From Prorocentrum cordatum (lineage: Eukaryota; Sar; Dinophyceae; Prorocentrales; Prorocentraceae), in assembly GCA_963575745.1 (NCBI GenBank), contig CAUYUJ010015506.1, forward strand, positions 115,001 through 179,000: a stretch of DNA of 64,000 bases, written 5' to 3'. Both the position numbers and the translations under genes were made by a program. The notes below the pieces were generated by a model. It did no database searches. It was not told where the DNA came from and worked only from the letters and a program-made list of their open reading frames with translations. Positions 15,290 to 61,965 of this stretch are shown here, one piece after another. Numbering within the stretch: the first letter of the stretch is position 1; every line of letters starts with the position of its first letter.

Positions 15290-15457
15290 ATGGCTCACAA
15301 GGGGACACCATGTTCTTATCCTCAGTGCCCCCATTTCACCTTCGATGTTGTCATTGCCTGTCGTTGCTCCCCGTGTGCTCTCAACCTTCTTGCAATGGGT
15401 AGTGGATCGTGATGGCTACATATTCTCCTGGGCAGTGCTCTTGGGCGTTCTGGAACG
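15290..15457 (+). other. 3' flank of the membrane/PAS ORF
   Basis: Unique sequence between the stop codon and the palindrome. Presumed 3' UTR; no polyadenylation signal identified. Confidence 0.4.
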
Positions 15458-15911
15458 TCTGGTGGTCTGGTGGTCTGGTGGTCAGGTGGTCAGGTGGTCT
15501 GGTGGTCTGGTGGTCTGGTGGTCTGGTGGTCTGGTGGTCTGGTGGTCTGGTGGTCTGGTGGTCTGGTGGTCTGGTGGTCTGGTGGTCTGGTGGTCTGGTG
15601 GTCTGGTGGTCTGCCCCTTATGCGAGCCGTTGGATCCACAACACCAGACCACCAGACCACCAGACCACCAGACCACCAGACCACCAGACCACCAGACCAC
15701 CAGATCACCAGAGTCTGGTGGTCTGGTGGTCTGGTGGTCTGGCGGTCTGGTGGTCTGGTGGTCTGGTGGTCCGGTGGTCTGGTGGTCTGGTGGTCTGGTG
15801 GTCTGGTGGTCTGGTGGTCTGGTGGTCTGGTGGTCTGGTGGTCTGGCGGTCTGGCGGTCTGGTGGTCTGGTGGTCTGGTGGTCTGGTGCTCTGGCGCTCT
15901 GGTGCTCTGGC
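15458..15911 (+). repeat. 8-bp minisatellite (GGTCTGGT)n with an inverted block
   Basis: The GGTCTGGT unit runs at 15458-15612. After a 30-bp interruption the complement (ACCAGACC)n runs at 15643-15712, then the direct orientation resumes at 15714-15911. All frames stay open because the 8-bp unit has no stop, giving WWSGGLVV peptides. The inverted block can form its own hairpin. Confidence 0.95.
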
Positions 15912-16009: not shown

Positions 16010-18201
16010 TCTTAGGTTTGGTGGTGCTACACGCGCTCCTTTTGCTAGACGCGCCCCTCTGTTAGACAGGCTCCCTCGCCAAGCTGATTAAACAAACCTC
16101 AGTGGTGCTAGACGCGCTCCACTGTTACACAAGCCACCTCTGTTAGGCAGACTCCCTCGTCAAGCAGATTAACAAAAAAACTCAGTGGTGCTAGACGCGC
16201 TCCTCTGTTAGACGCGCTCCTCTGTTCCACAGCCCTCCTCTGTTAGACAGGCTCCCTCGCCAAGCCGATTAAAACATCTCAGTGGTGCTAGACGCGCTTC
16301 TCTGTTACACAAGCCCCTCTGTCAGACCGGCTCCCTCGCCAAGCTGATTTAAAAAATCTCAGTGGTGCTAGACGCGCTCCTTTGCTAGACCTGTCCCTCT
16401 GTTAGACAGGCTCCCTCGCCCAGCTGATTAAAAATTATCAGTGATGCTAGACGCCCTCCTCTGTTACATAAGCCACCTCGGTTAGACAGACTCCCTCGCC
16501 AAGCTGATCAAAAACATCTCAGTGGTGCTAGGCGCGCTCCTCTGTTATACAGGCCCCCTCTGTTAGACAGGCTCCCTCGCCAAGCTGATTTAAAACATCT
16601 CAGTGGTGCTAGACGCGCTCCACTGTTACACAAGCCCCCTCTGTTAGACAGGCTCCCTCGCCAATCTGATTAAAAAACATTTCAGTGGTGCTAGACGGGC
16701 TCATTTTGCTAGGCGCGCCCCTCTGTTAGACAGCTCCTCTGTTACACAAGCACCTCTGTTAGGCAGACTCCCTCGCCAAGCCGATTAAAATGATCTCAGC
16801 GGTGCTCGACGCGCACCTCTGTTACACGCGCCCCTCTGTTAGACCGGCTCCCTCGCCACGCAGATTAACAAAAAACGCAGTGAAGCTAGACGCGCTCCTT
16901 TGCTAGACCTGCCCCTCTGTTAGACAGACTCCCTCGCCCAGCTATTTAAACAAATACCTGTGATGCTAGACGCGCTTCTCTGTTACACAAGCTTCTCTGT
17001 TAGGCAGGCTCCGTCGCCAAGCTCATTAAAAACATCTCAGTGGTGCTAGGCGCGCTCCTCTGTTAGACGCGCTCCTCTGTTGCACAAGCCCCCTCTGTAA
17101 GACAGGCTCCCTCGCCAAGCTGATAAAAAATCAGTGGTGCTAGGCGCGCTCCTCTGTTATACAGGCCCCCTCTGTTAGACAGGCTCCCTCGCCAAGCCGA
17201 TTTACAACATCTCAGTGGTGCTAGACGCGCTCCACTGTTACACAAGCCCCCTCTGTTAGACAGGCTCCCTCGCCAAGCTGATTAAAACATCTCAGTGGTG
17301 CTAGACGGGCTCATTTTGCTAGGCGCGCCCCTCTGTTAGACAGCTCCTCTGTTACACAAGCACCTCTGTTAGGCAGACTCCCTCGCCAAGCTGATTTAAA
17401 CAATATCCGTGATGCTAGACACGCTTCTCTGTTATACAAGCTCCCTCTCTTAGACAGGCTCCCTTGCCAAGCTGATTAAACACATCTCAGTGGTGCTAGG
17501 CGCGCTCCTCTGTTAGACGCGCTCCTCTGTTGCACAAGCCCCCTCTGTTAGACGGGCTCCCTCGCCAAGCTGATAAAACAAATCTCAGTGGTGCTAGGCG
17601 CGCTCCTCTGTTACACAGGCCCCCTCTGTTAGACAGGCTCCCTCGCCAAGCCGATTTAAAACATCTCAGTGGTGCTAGACGCGCCCCACTGTTACACAAG
17701 CCCCCTCTGTTAGACAGGCTCCCTCGCCAAGGTGATAACAAAAAAAAACATCTCAGTTGTGCTAGACGCGATCCTTTTGCTAGGCGCGCCCCTCTGTCAG
17801 ACAGCTCCTCTGTTACACAAGCCCCCTCTGTTAGACAGGCTCCCTCGCCAAGCTGATTAAAACATCTCAGTGGTGCTAGACGCGCTCCACTGTTACACAA
17901 GCCACCTCTGTTAGACAGGCTTCCTCTGTTAGACAGGCTCCCTCGCCAACCTGATACAAAAAAACATCCGTGGTGATAGACGTGCTCCCCTGTTGCACAA
18001 GCCCCCTCTGTCAGACAGGCTCCCTCGACAAACTGATTAAGAAAAACTCGGTGGTGCTAGACGCGCGCCTCTGTTACACCTGCGCCCTCTGTTGGACAGG
18101 CCCCCTCGCCAAGCTGCAGGCTCCCTCGCCAAGCTGTTTATACAAAGCCTCACTGGTGCTAGACAAGCTTCATGTTACACAAGTCCCCTCTGTTAGACAG
18201 G
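16010..18201 (+). repeat. Left array of ~81-bp units
   Basis: About 24 imperfect units. The core is CTCCTCTGTTACACAAGCCC, then CTCTGTTAGACAGGCTCCCT, then CGCCAAGCTGATTAAAACAT, then CTCAGTGGTGCTAGACGCG. Units vary by loss or duplication of the 15-20 bp subunits around CTCTGTTA. No ORF is conserved between units and no tRNA-like fold or promoter box was recognised. Confidence 0.9.
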
Positions 18202-18203
18202 CT

Positions 18204-19645
18204 CCTGTCTGACAGAAGGGGCTTGTGCAGCAGAGGGGCGCGTCTAGCGCCACTGAGATTTTTTAAATCAGCTTGGCGAGGGGGCCTGTCTAGCAGAAGG
18301 GGCCGGTTTGACAGAGGAATCAGCTTGTCGAGGGAGCCTGTGTCTAACAGAGGGGGCTTGTGTAACAGAGGTGCGCGTCTAGCACCACTGAGATGTTCTA
18401 AATCAGCTTGCCGAGGGAGTCTGTCTAACAGAGGGCGCAGGTCTAACAGCGGAGCGCGCCTAGCACCACTGAGATTTTTTTTTAATCAGCTTGGCGAGGG
18501 AGCCTGTCTAACAGAGGGGGCTTGTGCAACAGAGGAGTGCGTCTAGATCTTTTTAATCAGCTTGCCGAGAGAGCCTGTCGAACAGAGGGCGCAGGTCTAA
18601 CAGAGGAGCGCGTCTAGCACCACTGATGTTTTTTTATACAACTTGGCGAGGGAGCCTGTCTAACAGAGGGGGCTTGTGGAACAAAGGAGCGCGTCTAGCA
18701 CCACTGAGATTTTTAAATCAGCTTGGCGAGGGAGCCTGTCTAACAGAGGGGGTTTGTGTAATAGAGGAGTGCGTCTAGCACCACTGAGATTTTTTAAATC
18801 AGCTTGGCGAGGGAGCCGGTCTAGCAGAGGGGGCTAGTTTTACAGAGGAATCAGCTCGGCGACGGAGCCTGTCTAACAGAGGGGGCAGGTCTAACAGAGG
18901 CGCGCGTCGAGCACCACTGAGGTTTTTTGAAACAGCTCGGCGAGGGGGCCTGTCTAACAGAGGGGGCTTGTGGAACAGTGGGGCGCGTCTAGCCTCACTG
19001 AGATGTTTTACATCGGCTTGGCGAGGGAGCCTGTCTAACAGAGGGCGCAGGCCTAACAGAGGGCGCAGGTCTTACAGAGGAGCGAGTCTAGCACCACTGA
19101 TGCTTTTTTAAACAGCTTGGCGAGGGAGCCTGTCTAACAGAGGGGGCTTGTGCAACAGAGGAGCGCGTCTAGCACCACTGAGATCTTTGTAGTCAGCTTG
19201 CCGAAGGAACCTGTCTAACAGAGGGCGCAGGTCTAGCAGAGGCGCGCGTACAATACCACCGTGATCTTTGTTTTAAATCAGTTTTGGCGAGGGAGCCTGT
19301 CTAACAGAGGGGGCTTGTGTAATAGAGGGGCGCGTCTAGCACCACTGAGGTTTGTTTAATCAGCTTGGCGAGGGAGCCTGTCTAACAGAAGGGCGCAGGT
19401 CTAACAGAGGCGCGCGTCTAGCACCAATGAGATGTTTTAATCTGCTTGGCGAGGGAGCCTGTCTAACAGAGGGGGCTTGTGTGATTCAGCGCGTCTAGCA
19501 CCACTGAGCTTCAGCTTGGCGAGGGAGCCTGTCTAGCAGAGGTGGCCTGTGTAACAGAGGAGCAGGTCACCAGAGCACCAGGCCACCTGACCACCAGTGC
19601 CTAGCAGAGGGGGCCTGTGTAACAGATGAGAGCGTCTAGCACCGC
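18204..19645 (-). repeat. Right array, inverted ~81-bp units
   Basis: About 17 units of the same sequence in reverse complement (GCACCACTGAGATTTTTTAA, ATCAGCTTGGCGAGGGAGCC, TGTCTAACAGAGG). Copies diverge to a similar degree as in the left array, so this is not a simple recent duplication of one arm. Confidence 0.9.
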
Positions 19646-53392: not shown

Positions 53393-53860
53393 CCATGGCA
53401 CGCGCACTTTTAATTTATACACATACATTATTTGATTCGCTCTCATCAGATAACCGTGTTGAATGCTTCGCTCATTCCGCCAGTTTGCATCCATCCCACC
53501 ACCGTTGGTGCGTGATGGTATGCTCGTAGCCCGCGGGAGCTGTGCGGGAGCCAGGAACTTTCAAACACACGTTTGTGGGGCGTGGTTCCACACGTTGCGC
53601 GTGGTTTATTGGAGTATCTTGTGGGGCTTGGTGTGATTCTTGGACCGTCCGAGGGGTCGTCTCGGGGTGTCTTGTGTTTGCTGCGGGGCATGGTTCGGGG
53701 TGTAGGTTGGAGGCGGCTGGATTATCTTTGGGTGTCTTGGGGTGACACGGGGTCGTGGACAAGACGCCTCTTCAAGAGGCTTTTCGGTGTCCTGGGAGGC
53801 ATTGGCCCGCGGCGTTCTGGGCGCATCGCGCCGCGGTGAGGTCGCGGCCCTTGTCAAGGG
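53393..53860. other. No gene; degenerate GT-rich sequence
   Basis: 53560-53760 contains repeated GTGGGGC/CGGGGTGTCTTG words. No ORF with motifs. Confidence 0.5.
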
Positions 53861-53862
53861 TA

Positions 53863-54436
53863 CCCTTGTGTCCTCTCAGGATTTGGGAGCTCATTTCGCT
53901 TCGAAGTAAGGCTGTGATTGTGCTGGCCTCCGGCCAGTGCCGCCAATCTGGGGCGTTCCGGATGATGATGATGATGCTGCTGATGATGATGACGATGATG
54001 CTGACGATGATGATGATGGCGATGGTGATGATCACGATGCTGATGATGCTGATGATGATGCTGCTGATGATGATGATGCTGATGCTGCTGATGATGATGC
54101 TGATGCTGCTGCTGATGATGATTAGTATGATGATGCTGGCGATGCTGATCATGCTGATGATGATGCTGATGATGATTAGGATGGCGATGATGATGATGAT
54201 GCTGATGATGATGATGATGATGATGATGATGCTGCTGATGATGATGATGCTGATGATGATGATGCTGATGATGTTCATGATGACGATGATGATGATGCTG
54301 CTGCTGCTGATGATAGTGATGATGATGCTGATGATGATGATGCTGATGATGATGATGCTGATGCTGATGCTGATGCTGCTGCTGATGATGATGATGCTGA
54401 TGATGATGTTGATGATGACGATGCTGATGATGATGG

Positions 54437-54468
<32 letters not shown>

Positions 54469-54475
54469 CTGATGC

Positions 54476-54555
<80 letters not shown>

Positions 54556-54625
54556 ATGATTAGTACCCTTGTGTCCTCTCATATTTGGGGGCTCCTTGCG
54601 CTTCGAAGTAGAACTGTGATTTCAG
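53863..54625 (+). repeat. GAT microsatellite bracketed by a ~60-bp direct repeat
   Basis: GTACCCTTGTGTCCTCTCAG, then TTTGGGAGCTC, CGCTTCGAAGTA and CTGTGATT occur at 53859-53918. A second copy lies at 54564-54620. Between them is a GAT/GCT array at 53962-54560, pure at 54475-54550. The array plus one flank may have arisen by unequal exchange. Confidence 0.85.
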
Positions 54626-54794
54626 CGCCGCGCCGACGGCAGGTCAGGTCGTGGACGGTGAGGGGCACTCGCCCTGCGCGAGACCTGCGCTCTCGGGGCG
54701 CCTTGGTCGGCGGCCGCTGCTGCGCTGGTCGGTGCTTCGGGTCGCTCTGCCGCGGGAGGTGGAGAGTTTCTCCGAAGTGCTTAGGCGACCCGTC

Positions 54795-54910
54795 CTCCTC
54801 CTCCTCCTCCTCCTCTTCCTTCTCCTCCCTCCTCCTCCTCCTCCTCCTCCTCCTCCTCCTCCTCCTCCTCCTCCATCTCCTCCTCCCCCTCCCCCTCCTC
54901 CACCTCCTCC
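54795..54910 (-). repeat. CCT microsatellite
   Basis: CTC triplets ending one base-pair cluster before the left terminal repeat of the DIRS-like element. Confidence 0.95.
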
Positions 54911-54913
54911 TCT

Positions 54914-55013
54914 GTGTAGCTCTGTGAACGTTACTGCCTGCCCAATCGTCTTGGCCGCTGCACGGCAAGGGATGCGATGTGCCTCCGCCGCCGTGCCCTG
55001 CTCAATCCTTTTC
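54914..55013 (+). repeat. Left terminal direct repeat of the DIRS-like element
   Basis: Begins GTGTAGCTCTGTGAACGTTA and ends CTCAATCCTTTTC. The partner is 61196-61295; 11 differences in 100, no gaps, mostly transitions. Confidence 0.85.
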
Positions 55014-55267
55014 GAGAGCGGTGGGCCCCATGCTTCATCAGTTTTTGGTCCAGTCCAGTCTCTCCGTTGCAATCCAGATAGCGCTGGGCTGGGTGCGACG
55101 GCTCGGCTGTGTCTTCGTCGAGGGCGGGCAACTGGCCGTAGTGGAGCAGCTGGGCGGGATCAGAGCCGTCCGTCTGCTCGTGTTCGTCATCGGCACGCTC
55201 GTGGTCTGCTGCTGCTGCTGCTGCTGCTGCTGCTCGGCGTGTGTTCTGGCCGCAGGCGCTGCCCACC

Positions 55268-56568
55268 ATGGCGTTCGTTTGGCGGGCTGGGATGCGAGTG
55301 CTGGTGCATTGGCACGCGAACGAGGAGTTCCAGGTGAGGCTTCTCCTTCGCGAGTCCTACGGCGTCGAGCTCGAGACAGAGCTCGGGACACCAGCGACGA
55401 GTCCTACGAGTCCGGTGTGGATGGCCGCTACGCCCGACCTCGACATGTACCCTCACGAGCTGGAGATACCGCCTCTGCACGCGCTGGTCCCCTGCGATCC
55501 GACGGGCCGGCCGCTGTGGCGCGATCGAGTGGGCGCGGACGGAGGACGCCGGGCCCGCCCGTTTTACCTCCCAGTGGTCTCCGGCCCCCCACGAGATCAT
55601 GGAACTCCGCTCTGCTTGTGGCGCGAGCCCGCCAGCGGGGGAGCTGGCGAATGCGGGCCGGCCAGCGCTGGCGGCTCCGCCGGGCCCGCTGGATGGGAGA
55701 GCGACTCCTTTTGAAGGGGTGGTGCGAGGCTCGGGAAGGATGGAGGTTGGCCCCGGGCGGCGATGGTTCATCGTAGGCTGCGAGGACGAGGGTGAGGTGA
55801 ACGTGCCGGCGGACTTCGACAGCTGCGAGTGGTTCATGGTCTACGACACGCTCGGGGTCGTGAAGGCCGGGGGGACAGGCTACCCGGTGAAGTCCACGAT
55901 GGAGAAGCAGGCCGAAAGTTCGTTGGACGCGCGTGTGTTGCCCATCCTGTACGGTTCGACGTCGAGAGGCGGCGCGTCTTCAAGGACGCAGTGCGGGGCA
56001 TGTCCGAGACGGCGTGGGTTGGTTGGCCCGTGAAGGGGCCGCGGACCGCGTTGTGGCGCGTCCGCTTCCTCGGGGAGCAGGGCGCGCATCCCCGCGCCAG
56101 GCGCAGCAAGTGGCGCGCGGGGCGCGGCTTGACGGCGAACGACACGGGCGTCTCGGACCACGAGCTGGCGATGAGGGCGGTGGAGCTGGGTGCCAGCTTC
56201 GACCAGCTCAACATGACGGAGCTGGCGCTGGTGGAGCTGCTGGTTTGGCGTGCTCAGCTGGTGGAGTGGCGACACAGAGAGAGGCTGCCCAAGAGCAGCG
56301 GCGACGAGTGTACCTGGAGGACGAGTACCTGTACGTGGGGACCTCGGAGACACGAGGGCCACTCATGGTGCGCCCGCTGCTGGTGGATCACATCCAGGCA
56401 GAGCTGCGCAAAGAGGCGACGCCCATGAGGGAGAAGCGGAAGCTCCGAGAGGAGCGGATGTTGTCTCGCGGGCAGGGATTTGCCGGCGGAGGCGGCGGGA
56501 ACAAGGCGCTGCGCGACAAGGTGGCGGCTCAGGCCGTGGAGATCAGCGAGCTCCAGGCGAAGGTCTAA
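55268..56568 (+). pseudogene. ORF1 (gag-like) of the DIRS-like element, frameshifted
   Basis: The ATG at 55268 has a good context (CCACCATGG). The protein-like signal moves through frames: MRVLVHWHANEEFQVRLLL to DLDMYPHELEIPPLHALV (55268-55520), RRWFIVGCEDEGEVNVPADF to WFMVYDTLGVV (about 55757-55865), GMSETAWVGWPVKGP to LVWRAQLVEWRHRE (about 55995-56285), and EDEYLYVGTSETRG to a coiled-coil end ALRDKVAAQAVEISELQAKV (56310-56566), stopping at 56568. I recall similar proteins preceding RT in dinoflagellate retroelements, so I infer a nucleocapsid-type role. No zinc knuckle is seen. At least three frame changes make it a pseudogene. Confidence 0.55.
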
Positions 56569-56899
56569 GGCCCCCCGGGCGGCGAGCGTGCCAGAGGAGG
56601 GGGCGGGGCCAGTTGAGTCCATGGTGGTCGCCCGGGAGCTGCTGCCGTGCCCGGTGCCCGCCTCTGGCCGCCCTCCAGCCGGCGGCGGCTGCCGGGCGGT
56701 GCGCTCTCGGGTGCGACAGCGTCGGCGCGTTGGCCAGCGGCTGTCAGAGGATGTGCATGCCGTCAATTCATTGTGCGGCCGTGGTGCTCCCCGACAGATC
56801 TCCAGGCGTCGTGTCCCCATCTCGCTGGCATTGACCACGCCCGCGACGTCATCTCGGAGGCAAGTCCCCCGCCTCTTTCAGGAGCGGCAGCCTGCGCCG

Positions 56900-58000
56900 A
56901 GCTTGTGCTCACACTTGCCGGAGTTTGCAGAAGAGACCGTGCGCCGAGCCACCTACTCCGAGGGGTTGGTTGCCCCGCCGACGGCGGGCGGGCAGTGCAA
57001 GGGCGCTGCGCGCTTGTCGTGGTGGGCCCGCGATCTGTGGGTAGGCTGGCAGAAGCATCTACTTCGCCATTATGGGCCCGCGGATGGTCCTCGCCTTCGT
57101 CCTTTCTCATCTTCGAAATTCGTGTAGCGCAAGCGGGCCCACTCTCGTTTTGTTGGGCAGCTGTTGGACCGAGGTCTCGTCGACCTGGGCGAGCGGGCCG
57201 AGGCGACGGTGGGCGTCTTCTTCATTTTCAAGAGCGGCAGGCGGACCCATGGCGTTATCGCCCACGCTCGTGTGGCCAACGCGCGTTTTTGGCCGCCAGC
57301 CTACTTTTAGTTGCCGACCGCGGGCGCATGGGGTAGCCTGACTGCGCTGGAGGGCAAGTCCCTGCAGATGGCCCAGATGGACGTGGCTGAGGCGTCCTAC
57401 AGGATCGCCTCGCCGCCCAGGCTGCGCGACCACTTCGCGATGCCTGCCGTCGACCTCGACGCCCTCCGGACCGAGAGGCCCGACCTGGCCGCGCAGTTGC
57501 CCGCTGGGCGCAAGGCGTTACCGCGGCTGGTGGTTCTCGCGGTGGGCTGGAGCTGGGGCCTCTTCTTCTGCCGGCAGATGGTGGAGGCCCAGGTGATCCA
57601 GAGCGGGCTGGCGTGGGGGCGGCCGGCGCGTGACCAGCGCTCCGCGCTTTGCCTGGGGCAGGGGCCTGCCGCCGGGGCGTGCGTGGGCGGGGCCGCCGTC
57701 ATCGGGCTCGACCGCGCCGAGGCGGTGGGGGCGGCCCAGCGGGCGCGCGCCGCCCTCGACGCGGCGGGCCCGCAGTGCGAGGGGCTCGAGGAGCCCATCG
57801 CGGAGGCGGCGTTAACTGGCCTGGCGTTTGACGAGGCGAGGGGCCGCGTCGGGCTCAGTCGCCGCCGCGTGTGGCGCATCCGACCGAGCGCGCTGTGCGT
57901 CGCCGGCCGGGGGCCCACCTCGGGCGACGAACTGCGGGCGCTCCTCAGCCGCTTCACCTGGGGCGCGCTTGCGCGGATGGGGGCCCCGGTCCATCTTCTC
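56900..58000 (+). pseudogene. Reverse transcriptase of the DIRS-like element, inactivated
   Basis: The fingers (FVGQLLDRGLVDLGERAEAT, VGVFFIFKSGRR, then ANARFWPP, 57145-57300) run into a TAG stop at 57308-57310. The next frame gives the palm: motif A QMDVAEASYRI (about 57376) and the DIRS-typical block PRLVVLAVGWSWGLFFCRQM (about 57523-57580). Where motif C (YVDN/YVDD) is expected before AVIGLDRAEAV (about 57700), the sequence reads CVGGAAVIG, so the catalytic Asp pair is missing. The thumb segment EAALTGLAFDEARGRV follows. The GWSW-type block points to DIRS-like rather than LINE reverse transcriptase. Confidence 0.7.
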
Positions 58001-58099
58001 CGCGGCCCGCCGGTTCGCTACCTGGGCCGGGGGGCGGCGGCGCCGTCTGTGGGGCGCCGTGGAGGCGGAGCTCCGCGTGGCCGCCGCGCTTGTCGCGTT

Positions 58100-58800
58100 C
58101 GGCTACGTGAACTGCAGCCGCCGCCCAGGCCCCGTGGTGCTGGCGACCGACGCCTGCGGCGCGACGGCCTGCGACGCGGGCGGTTTCGGCGTGGTGGGCC
58201 GCGCCTGGGGCCCGGGCGACGTCGCCTGGGCCTGCGCCCAGGCCGAGCGGTGGCGGTGCCGCGTGTCCGAGGCTGTGTCGGCGCGGGCGCGCGCGCTCGG
58301 GCTGTCGGAGCGCCCGGCCGTCCTTGGGGCTGCAGGTGACCCAAATAGTCAGAAAGCCACGCAGAGCCATCCTGGTCCAGATCAGGTCCTATCGCCTCTA
58401 TCGAGTTCTCCGCAGCACATCTCTGAGTTCGACCAGCCGGCTGGGGACATGTACATGGTCGATTTCGTTCGAGCAGATCGCCTCGAGTCATGTCGGCAGC
58501 TTCGACGCGCGGCAGCTCCGGGTCAGAGGTAGGTTCAGCACAGCCGAGAACATCGCCCGTCTGGCGGTGCACGGGGCCGTCATCGGCGTTCGACATGAGC
58601 TTCGGGCTATTTCCCGACGGGGGCACAAGCTGCTCGCGTTGCGCGACAACCTGGGCCCGGTGTGGGCCCTTGGAAAAGGGCGGGCTACCGCCCCGATTGT
58701 GAGCCAGATTTGCCGCGAGGTCGCCGCGCTAAGCATCGTGGGGGGCCTCTCGGTGACCGTTCGGTGGGCCCCCTCGGAGCTCAACCCAGCTGACCGTCCA
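58100..58800 (+). pseudogene. RNase H of the DIRS-like element
   Basis: PVVLATDACGATACDAGGFG (about 58132-58190) carries the first catalytic Asp. After a frame change and a ~100-bp stretch without motifs (58330-58440), FDARQLRVRGRFSTAENIAR (about 58500) and HGAVIGVRHELRA lead to LLALRDNLGPVWALGKGRA (about 58630-58690), with the third acidic residue. The segment ends with SVTVRWAPSELNPADRPFR (about 58752-58806), the standard end of DIRS RNase H. The Glu expected in the IARLAVHGAV helix is absent. Confidence 0.65.
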
Positions 58801-59329
58801 TTCCGTATACCTGGTGCCCGGGCTCGAGACCTTCGGGTAGGTCTTCGGAGGGCGAGCGTCGACCCCGCTGGGCCGCCGCGGTGCGACGCCGAAGCGGCTT
58901 GCGCGCCGCGGTCGACGAGGCGCTATCGGGGGGGGAGCTCGACTGGCTGGGCCGGCCGCAGGCTTGCGCGGCTGGGCTTGGGGACCTCTTCGTGGGCGAC
59001 CCGCTGCCGGGTGGCGCCGCGCGGCTGCGTGCTGAGGCGGCGGCTGGTGGCGGCGACAGCGGCGGCCCAGCGGCGTGCGCGGTTTCCGAGAGCAGCGGCA
59101 GTGCTCGAGCGCCTGTGACTTCGGTGACTGCGGCGAGACCTTCGAAGACGTCGACTCCTGCAGTGGCGGGCCGGCGCCTGGCGCCAGCCCCGAAGCAGGC
59201 GCTGGGTGGGCGGATGTCGGGCCCCCAGGTGAAGGTGGAAGAGGGTATCGAGCGCCGCGCGGCCCGCCGTCGAGCCCCCGCCGCGGGCGCCGCCCCGGCG
59301 AGGCTTCCGGGCGGCCCGCGCGAGATCAC

Positions 59330-60170
59330 TTCGAGAGCAGGCGTGTGACCGAGAAGGGCCAGGACACGCTGCGCCGCGGTGTCTGGGCCTCCCGCGCGTG
59401 GTGCCAGGGGCATCGCAAGCCCGTGGGCTCCAGGGCGGCGCTCGACGACGCGCTCGCGGAGTACCTGGGCCCCCACTGCTACTTCGACGGCGAGGGGCGA
59501 CAAGCTTCAGTCAGGCCCGGCCTTCGAGGAGCCGAGGTTCAGGCGCGGCGGCGAGGGGGGCTGGGCGCGAGCCCGGGCTGCCCTCCAGGGTTTCCGCCGC
59601 CTGGCACCTGGACAGATGAGGCTGCCGCCGACGCGACCAGAGTTCGCCGCGCTGCTGGGGGCCGGGGTCGCGGCGCTGGGGCGGGGCTTCGGGATCAGCC
59701 TGGCGATCGCGTGGGGCGGCGGGTTGCGGCTGCCCAGCGACATCATGAGCCTGCAGGGCCGGTCGCTCATCCCGCCCCCTCCGCGCTCGGGCGTCAGCAA
59801 TTGGGGCCCGACCCCGCGCCCGGCCGAGGCGGAGGTGGCGAGCAAGTCTGGGCGCGAGGGCGAGCGGTAGCCGCTGGGCGGCGCGTTCGTGGACGGCCTG
59901 CGCGCGCAGCTGTGGTGGCTGAGGGGGGCGGCGGGCGAGACCGGCCGCCCCTGGCCGCTCGCCGCCGCGGAGTTCAGAGCGGGCTTCAAGAGTCAAATGA
60001 GCGGCCGCCATGATCGGGCGGCCGTCGCTGCATCCATGCCAAGTGCGACGCGGGGCCGCCAGCAGCGACGCGCTATCCCGACGGCGATCCCTGGCGGAGA
60101 TCCAGGAGCGAGGGGCGCCATGCAATGCAAGAAGCGCGCGCTGTACCTAGCCGAGCTCAGCAAGGTGCCG
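59330..60170 (+). pseudogene. Tyrosine recombinase of the DIRS-like element
   Basis: The N-terminal helical part reads SRRVTEKGQDTLRRGVW, then GHRKPVGSRAALDDALAEYL (59335-59475, one frame). After a frame change come GWARARAALQGFRRLAPGQM and GFGISLAIAWGGGLRLPSDIM (59560-59745), with the catalytic Arg block (LRPSE-like, here LRLPSD) and SKSG (about 59840). The end of the domain is HAKC (usual HxxR), then GAASSDALSRRRSLAEIQER (about 60050-60115), matching the GGxS and helix that precede the catalytic Tyr; the Tyr itself is probably in CKKRALYLAEL (about 60130-60155). The order and spacing fit DIRS YR domains. Multiple frame changes make it inactive. Confidence 0.6.
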
Positions 60171-60239
60171 CCCCGCCCGCGGGCATGCGGGGAGGCGGTG
60201 GAGGCGCAGATCGCGGCGGCCCTGAACGGGCGCCTGGCG

Positions 60240-61090
60240 CTGCTGCCGCCGCCCGACCCGGCCGCAACTGCGCGCTGGAGGCCGGTCGCGCCCGCCTCGT
60301 GGGGGGCGCGCTGGTGCGCGGCAGGCAGCTGTCATCGGCCGCCGTGCGGGCTCGGCCGAGCGACGCCATGCGACGCGAGCTGGGCAGGTCCCCTCCTTGC
60401 TATCTGGACCTCTTTTCGGGCGCGGGCGGCGTCCTCCGCGCGCTCAGAAGATGGCGCAATGTCAGTATCGAGATGGACCTTCGCCATTCAGAGCTTTCCG
60501 GTCTCGCCTCGAAAGTGGTCGGACAGACCGTCGTTGGTAGGATCGCCAGTCGCCTGGTCGTCGGCGTCTTTGCAGCTGCCCCGTGCTCGACCTGATCGCA
60601 GGCCTCGCGCAATTCTTACCGATGCCCTGCCAGCGTCTGCCGACGTCCTCATCTCGAGGGGCAGGCGCTTGAGTCAATGAGCGCCTCTTAGTAGGTGGCG
60701 CGATCCTCGGTGTCACTCAGATGACGATCCGCGTGCGCGTGCGCCGCGGCGCCCCGATGAGCTGCGAGGGCCCTGTCAGCAGCTGCGCTTGGCGAGAGCC
60801 CATCATGCAGCATCTGTCTCAGCATTGCTTGTGTCGCGACGCCGTTTTCGACGTGTGCCAGTTTGGAACGCCGCAGAGAAAGCCCACTCGCCTCCGCTCG
60901 TTGAATTGTGTGCCGCCACCGTCTGCTCTGCGCCGTCGCTGTTGCAGCTCGCGCGGCGCCTGCTCGCAGTCCAGGCAGCCCCGCGTCGCTCGCCGGGGGC
61001 CAGGGCCGCGCGGTGAGCGGTGGAGTCGCATCGCCGAAAGCTATCCCAATACGTTGTGCAGCCAAATCGCTCGATGGCTGCGATCCTCCA
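60240..61090 (+). pseudogene. DNA methyltransferase (cytosine-type motifs) of the DIRS-like element
   Basis: CYLDLFSGAGGVLRALRRW (about 60399-60455) is the AdoMet-binding motif I with FxGxG. The acidic IEMD at 60468 fits motif II. RLVVGVFAAAPCST (about 60550-60592) ends in a Pro-Cys pair at the place of cytosine-methyltransferase motif IV, followed directly by a stop. In another frame (60810-61085), DAVFDVCQFGTPQRKPTRLR, GACSQSRQP and RIAESYPNTLCSQIARWL look like the C-terminal half. No DPPY (adenine-type) motif is seen. In the living element it would methylate DNA, perhaps the element's own copies. Target base and specificity are inferred only from the PC motif. Two or more frame changes. 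Confidence 0.6.
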
Positions 61091-61122
61091 GGGCGCAGTG
61101 TGGGATCGGGCAGGGCGAGATC

Positions 61123-61443
61123 CGCATCGCTTGCAAGCTGGAAGCCGCTCCCCCGAACGCATTCCTGATCTTGCCATGTACAAAGGAGCCTGCATGTGTA
61201 GCTCTGTGAATGTTATTGCCTGCCCAATCGTCGTGGCCGCTGCGCAGCAAGGGATGCGATGTACCTCCGCCGCTGCGTTCTGCTCAAGCCTTTTCCTCCC
61301 TAGCCCTCCTGCCACCCATATTTTGCTGGACTGTTTGCACGCACTTGGCTGTTCTAGTAGAAGGCGGAGCGAGCGCCGCATCGTTTGCAAGCTGGAAGCC
61401 GTTCCCTCGAACACATCCTTGATCTGGTCATGTAAACAGGGAC
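61123..61443 (+). repeat. Direct repeat bracketing the right terminal repeat
   Basis: CGCATCGCTTGCAAGCTGGA (61123-61188 copy) and CGCATCGTTTGCAAGCTGGA (61378-61443 copy) match over ~65 bp, 255 bp apart, with the right terminal repeat between them. Nested repeats at the 3' end are typical of DIRS-type termini, or reflect a partial duplication. Confidence 0.8.
61196..61295 (+). repeat. Right terminal direct repeat of the DIRS-like element
   Basis: Begins GTGTAGCTCTGTGAATGTTA and ends CTCAAGCCTTTTC. Partner of 54914-55013. Confidence 0.85.
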
Positions 61444-61510
61444 CGGCGCTCCTCCTGTCGCCTACGGCCCCGGGGGAAACCGTGCAGCGGGAGGATGGGT
61501 TGCGCGTCCT

Positions 61511-61965
61511 GTCGTTTGCGATGTTCGCGTCCGCGCCCTGGTTCTCTGGGTCCCCCGCCATGGCGACGGGTTGCTCTCCCGCGAAACGGTGGTCTGCGCG
61601 TCCCGTCGTTTGCGACGTCTGTGTTTCTGCGCCCCTGTTTTCTAGTCCTCCGCCATGGCGACGGGTCGCTTTCTCGCGGGAGGGTGGTGTGCGCGCCCTG
61701 TCGTTTGCGACGTCCGCGTTTCCGCGCCTTTGTTTTCTGGTCCTCCGCCATGGCGACGGGTCGCTTTCCCGCGGGAGGTGGTCTGCGCGTCCCGTCGTTT
61801 GCGACGTCCGCGTTTCCGCGCCCCTGTTCTTTGGTTCTCCGCCATGGCGACGTGTCGCTCTCCCGCGAGAGGGTGGTGTGCGCGCCCTGTCGTTTGCGAC
61901 GTCCGCGTGTGCGCCTTTGTTTTCTGGTCCTGTGCCATGGCGACGGGTCGCGCGATCGCCCGTGT
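61511..61965 (+). repeat. Tandem repeat, 94-95-bp unit, about 4.8 copies
   Basis: GTCGTTTGCGACGTCCGCGT starts at 61511, 61605, 61700, 61794 and 61889. Each unit has TTCTGGTCCTCCGCCATGGC, GACGGGTCGC and CCCGCGGGAG. The constant period and high similarity suggest recent amplification. The minus ORF 62065-60803 runs through it without real coding support. Confidence 0.95.

Follow-up and report, generated by a model that had tools for sequence, protein, structure and literature searches.

We analyzed a stretch of 64,000 nucleotides (hereafter the window; 61% G+C) from the dinoflagellate Prorocentrum cordatum, corresponding to positions 115,001 to 179,000 of contig CAUYUJ010015506.1 in assembly GCA_963575745.1. 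It contains a broken tyrosine recombinase (YR) retrotransposon, which spans 54913 to about 61440-61447 and comprises, in this order, open reading frame (ORF) 1, a reverse transcriptase (RT), an RNase H, a YR and a methyltransferase (MT). The element is a dead member of a PAT-like, DIRS-order retrotransposon family with abundant copies in this dinoflagellate. Papers are cited below by PubMed Central identifier.

Organization of the window copy

The five coding parts lie where an initial annotation of this DNA had placed them. They are scattered over three frames with stops, and the copy is therefore dead. Three P. cordatum proteins (P0001, P0002 and P0003) match 56689-60421 in consecutive pieces by plain tblastn, with identities of 55-64% for the RT, 44-61% for RNase H and 43-78% for the YR (E 2e-104 for the RT and 9e-69 for the YR). 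P0002, which is encoded on a different contig, runs past the YR into the start of the MT (residues 1055-1085): its matching part ends CYLDIFSG where the window reads CYLDLFSG, and the preceding linker also recurs. Beyond this point, over residues 1086-1401, the retrotransposon Pol is followed by an RRM protein in the published gene model, a fusion that is probably spurious.

Short boxes mark the last two domains: RLPSD and GAASSD in the YR, LDLFSGAGG and APCS in the MT. Searching the window with a profile built from 21 related MTs locates its MT in two pieces (Table 1), the next-best place scoring E 1.2, and we therefore ruled out chance motifs as the origin of the MT boxes. Other searches were less informative. 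A protein-database search with the YR-MT region returned three P. cordatum proteins; the RT-RNase H piece had no match, nor did the MT region at E<=1. Nothing useful came from scanning window pieces, single or joined, with Pfam, NCBIfam and PHROG. No relative of the element was found in viral contigs, where four loci (L001-L004) were judged to be chance matches, and the RT had no match in plasmids.

The pair of 100-bp direct repeats described in the initial annotation is confirmed (A1 and A2), and a second pair (B1 and B2) had been missed. The resulting order is A1-ORFs-B1-A2-B2, and this second pair shows the ends of the element to be split direct repeats. The element begins at 54913 and extends past 61295, the right end proposed earlier; the MT, after a change of frame, reaches as far as 61086. 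The DIRS-like backbone first proposed is sound as to the domain order of a YR retrotransposon, but the repeats are split and direct (PAT/Ngaro type) and not inverted as in DIRS1. The repeat listing of the window gives no inverted repeats between the element ends, which rules out DIRS1-like ends.

Table 1. Features of the retrotransposon copy, in window positions
Feature	Position	Strand	Evidence and remarks
A1, left terminal repeat	54913..55013	+	89% identical to 61195-61295, 101 bp, blastn E 4e-32; CTC microsatellite directly before
ORF1 (gag position), broken	55268..56568	+	open pieces; homology of 55946-56469 to ORF1 in two relatives, L020 (E 1e-18) and L033 (E 2e-15)
Reverse transcriptase, with stops, GWSW block	56987..57976	+	64% identity to P0003 over 330 aa
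RNase H, two frames	57990..58824	+	58065-58454 and 58459-58989 match P0002; 57990-58454 matches P0003
Tyrosine recombinase, several frames	59366..60269	+	57% identity to P0001 over 251 aa, E 9e-69
MT N-terminal part, motif I to PC box, RT frame	60404..60604	+	profile E 8e-10
MT C-terminal part, other frame	60682..61086	+	profile E 5e-24; EGP replaces ENP; DVCQFGTPQRKPT
B1, internal repeat	61109..61186	+	82% identical to 61363-61440, E 8e-16
A2, internal repeat	61195..61295	+	pairs with A1 (101 bp, 89%, E 4e-32)
B2, right terminal repeat	61363..61440, could reach 61447	+	pairs with B1; alternative alignment 85 nt at 80%; then GCTCCTCCTGTC

Related elements and the class of their methyltransferase

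A seed locus, L005, was obtained by searching bacterial and archaeal contigs with a DNA pattern of window motifs; one locus was returned. It lies on PBZD01000127.1, labelled as a Chromatiales bacterium metagenome-assembled genome, and shows a recombinase-like C-terminus with an MT just downstream in another frame. This contig is probably eukaryotic contamination. We then searched the L005 MT against the window's own genome assembly (4.128 Gb). The search gave 10,549 first-look MT candidates, of which 150, not including the window copy, were scored: all 150 matched at E<=3e-32, and 12 had stops inside the match. Twenty loci were hand-picked from these 150 best, the aim being variety and, in part, long open frames; the counts of intact copies given below are therefore not genome rates.

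The RT is followed by the MT on the same strand in all 20 loci, each on a separate contig, which rules out a nested insertion. In 15 loci a YR can be recognized in the stretch between RT and MT; the search for copies uniting the three domains, suggested in the initial annotation, was thus fruitful. In 14 of these 15 loci the YR is confined to the +1 frame with respect to the MT, and in L031 it occupies two frames. RT and RNase H stand entirely in the MT frame in 15/20 loci, with a shift in L018, L019, L021, L025 and L026. The open frame containing the MT reaches at least 1,300 codons in 13 loci, two of which (L014 and L027) read open through runs of N. Among known structures, the RT profile of these relatives finds those of retroviral RTs (best E 1.3e-4), and the assignment of RNase H relies solely on its position and its homology to P0001-P0003.

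All four repeats are present in 12 loci, B only in five, A only in one and none in two (L020 and L029). In the relatives B1 adjoins A2, and in L015 the joint is identical to the two ends of the element brought together, as expected by circle-junction models of YR retrotransposons (PMC3266345, for DIRS1). Both repeat pairs are 100% identical in four of the 12 complete loci (L015, L023, L024 and L033), which therefore look recent; the window copy, with repeats only 89% and 82% identical, appears older.

Selection on the MT was assessed from the ratio of nonsynonymous to synonymous substitution rates (dN/dS) in 25 listed gene pairs of 190, 13 of which have 0<dS<1; the pairs are not independent. 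Among the pairs listed, 11 of the 13 close ones have a dN/dS of 0.06-0.19, and the other two have 0.43 and 0.83 at dS 0.04 and 0.01, respectively. Judged from these ratios, purifying selection maintains the MT in spreading lines.

The overlap between Pol, the frame of RT and MT, and the YR gene was tested by shuffling synonymous YR codons 1,000 times in 11 copies, namely the 12 with a long YR frame minus L014; some tested stretches start inside RNase H. Across the YR gene, the Pol frame has no stop in 10/11 copies and a single one in L016, where 3.1 to 14.3 were expected, and in no copy were more than 2.8% of the shuffles stop-free. In the third frame the stops number 4 to 22, close to expectation. 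It thus appears that the Pol frame is maintained without stops across the YR gene, on evidence that is strong, if not unbiased, the copies having been picked partly for open frames. The MT could therefore be made in one polypeptide with the RT.

We next consider the nature of this MT. A C..[FWL]S box is present in 21/21 sequences, in the form PC..S in 19, and its cysteine is invariant in the 20 aligned MTs. Motif VI reads ENP in 19/21, L030 and L032 being the exceptions and the window copy reading EGP; C5 (cytosine-5) enzymes usually read ENV at this position. DPPY-like boxes occur in 0/21 sequences. The family displays an S-adenosylmethionine (AdoMet) motif I, a PC box with the catalytic cysteine and the Glu-Asn of motif VI, by which C5 enzymes are recognized. 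These MTs lack the canonical C5 target-recognition region and have a Cys/His-rich tail in its place.

Profile comparisons point in the same direction. The MT profile matches a set of five phage and bacterial proteins, here called mini-C5, at P 9.4e-16; these five match four canonical phage C5 proteins at P 3.4e-9; and the MT profile matches the canonical four at P 1.2e-6, in an alignment restricted to motifs I to IV. For the 11 control comparisons, of which five used RT or YR and six used shuffled columns, P was 0.065-0.91. The L005 MT matches PHROG 757, a DNA methyltransferase family, over most of its length (E 2.7e-6), and 9/20 MTs reach this family at E<=0.01. MT queries against phages and plasmids gave only matches at E>0.1, some of which led to mini-C5 proteins. 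One relative, Aureispira WP_264793705.1, is annotated as a DNA cytosine methyltransferase, matches PHROG 757 at E 7e-28 and passes the PF00145 cut-off; of the three phage or bacterial relatives tested, two pass it. Motifs and the chain from MT to mini-C5 to canonical C5, with profiles compared against C5, RT, YR and shuffled sets, thus support a C5-type MT, in agreement with the cytosine class first proposed. Its nearest family looks to be the phage/bacterial mini-C5 proteins, and by motif and Pfam results it looks different from Dnmt3.

As for the surroundings of the window copy, a CTC microsatellite ends at A1 (54913) and the sequence after B2 reads GCTCCTCCTGTC. Together these flanks suggest that the element inserted into a microsatellite, the matching flank being short. 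Long ATG/CTG-type and CTC-type microsatellites occupy 53842-54912, directly before the element, and tandem copies with a spacing of about 95 bp follow directly 3' of it (61493-61951). Some other copies are likewise flanked by simple repeats. Elsewhere in the window, among the matches listed, 15457-15910 contains two arrays of an 8-bp unit, GTCTGGTG, and 16056-19563 consists of tandem arrays in opposite orientation: arrays of a unit of about 81 bp at 16056-18108, and units that are its reverse complement at 18318-19563.

Comparison with known elements

The closest architecture among the DIRS group is that of the PAT elements (Pat1, Toc and Kangaroo), which likewise combine RT, RNase H, MT and YR with split direct repeats in the order A1-B1-A2-B2 (PMC4157794), the order of MT and YR varying among them. 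The MT of the DIRS group is described as Dam-like, that is, N6-adenine (PMC3783388), whereas ours is C5-like. DIRS1-like elements have RT, RNase H and MT in one ORF, which the YR ORF overlaps in half of 28 elements (PMC3266345). However, their terminal repeats are inverted, and the catalytic part of their YR is said to lie outside the overlap; here, Pol crosses the YR gene to reach an MT beyond it. Ngaro and VIPER elements share the split direct repeats, the RT-RNase H and the YR, and lack an MT domain. The mini-C5 proteins of PHROG 757 share motif I, PC..S, ENP and a K-P/R-T box with the retrotransposon MT, but they are stand-alone phage and bacterial genes of 211-250 aa, to which the retrotransposon MT adds a conserved Cys/His tail.

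The initial annotation had singled out the pairing of a cytosine methyltransferase with a DIRS backbone as worth a check. This pairing is not new: DIRS-like elements with a Dnmt3 and the same repeat order were published in 2018 for Symbiodinium (SymbioDIRS-Dnmt3, PMC5890265), and DAM and DCM domains in retrotransposons have been reviewed (PMC6338049). We found no title or abstract start reporting a phage-type C5 methyltransferase in YR retrotransposons, in a search largely outside of which subscription papers fell. The words methyltransferase, retrotransposon and DIRS are absent from the main text of the P. cordatum genome paper (PMC10666404), and DNA methyltransferases (DNMTs) are reported to be enriched in the nuclear fraction of this alga (PMC10449503). 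It is the kind of enzyme, rather than the pairing, that looks unreported.

Proposed mechanism and its rivals

We propose that the RT would copy the element RNA and that the repeats would let the cDNA close into a circle, with B-A as the joint. The YR would then insert this circle into the genome by recombination, leaving no target-site duplication. The MT, made as part of Pol, may methylate cytosines of the new DNA, which would come to resemble the host genome. For SymbioDIRS, methylation of the cDNA has been argued, and de novo CG methylation by its DNMT is referred to (PMC5890265). We consider it likely that the window copy belongs to a PAT-like, DIRS-order family with a small C5-type MT at the far end of Pol, a YR overlapping Pol in the +1 frame and an MT that would act in this way. 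We give about even chances to a more ambitious claim: that dinoflagellate PAT-like elements carry a phage-type mini-C5 MT as a regular part of Pol, apart from Dnmt3 and Dam, invisible to Pfam, numbering thousands of copies within a single genome and maintained by selection, with Pol held open through the YR so that RT and MT form one protein methylating new element DNA.

Several observations weigh against this proposal. Among the 20 MTs none scores above a Pfam cut-off, and the weak matches favor an adenine family (MethyltransfD12 in 6/20, best E 0.011, versus PF00145 in 1/20, E 0.38). Searches of PDB with MT queries and the MT profile gave nothing significant. The YR was undetectable in 5/20 loci (L019, L021, L022, L026 and L027), and its label is weak: XerD is the only PDB match of the relatives' profile at E<=1 (E 0.054), and integrase PHROG matches are poor (P0002, to phrog_1, E 0.0058; P0001, 0.26; P0003, 0.24). 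For this reason the label leans on motif boxes (R...LRHGG...RRYEK) and on position. The loci were also hand-picked, as noted above. Finally, CpG is not depleted: values are 0.92-1.03 in 12 complete elements, and 1.06 in the window copy versus 0.86 for the rest. CpG content therefore lends no support to lasting methylation, without excluding it, and shows no trace of methylation-driven decay.

What else could the element be? It might be a member of the SymbioDIRS-Dnmt3 type, its MT a captured eukaryotic Dnmt3. That element is also from a dinoflagellate, has the same A-coding-B-A-B repeats, and carries its DNMT in the Pol ORF with the RT and its YR in another ORF. Yet its Dnmt3-clade enzymes were found with PF00145, a family that our MTs do not reach while nearly half of them reach PHROG 757, and the ENP at motif VI is unusual for a C5 enzyme, although Dnmt3 was compared by description only; we regard this origin as quite unlikely. 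A much diverged Dam-like (N6-adenine) MT, as in ordinary DIRS/PAT elements, would explain the position of the domain in Pol, which is the same, and the faint MethyltransfD12 matches. We hold it to be very unlikely: PF05869, able to detect fungal DIRS MTs (PMC3783388), matches 0/20 MTs at E<=1, and a cysteine-serine box is found in every MT where a DPPY-like box is found in none, results on which we set aside a Dam-type enzyme. The MT profile also matches C5 proteins, in a comparison that covered C5, RT, YR and shuffled sets.

A more serious question is whether the MT keeps the fold and no longer methylates DNA cytosine, acting on RNA, only binding nucleic acid or serving as a structural part of Pol. 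The replacement of the target-recognition region by a Cys/His-rich tail and the undepleted CpG would fit such a role. On the other hand, the PC-box cysteine is invariant, the MT is under purifying selection, and its phage and bacterial relatives are annotated as DNA (cytosine) methyltransferases, an annotation and not a test; we see this as possible but doubtful. That RT, YR and MT are adjacent through nested insertions or chance could be suspected from the broken frames of the window copy, but the same domain order recurs on 20 separate contigs and P0002 joins the YR to the start of the MT, making this extremely improbable. Both expectations of the initial annotation that bear on these points held: the MT was not placed outside the AdoMet methyltransferases, and RT, YR and MT do co-occur.

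The small C5-type MT that we favor has several implications. Surveys of retrotransposon methyltransferases based on PF00145 or Dam would miss this family, in spite of its 10,549 first-look candidates. The long Pol/YR overlap, open against chance, forms a large two-frame coding region whose expression is amenable to study. A domain of some 230 residues would make it possible to test the role of the DIRS MT, called unknown in PMC3266345. Should the MT methylate DNA, the cytosine methyltransferases of YR retrotransposons would derive from at least two sources, one being of phage/bacterial type.

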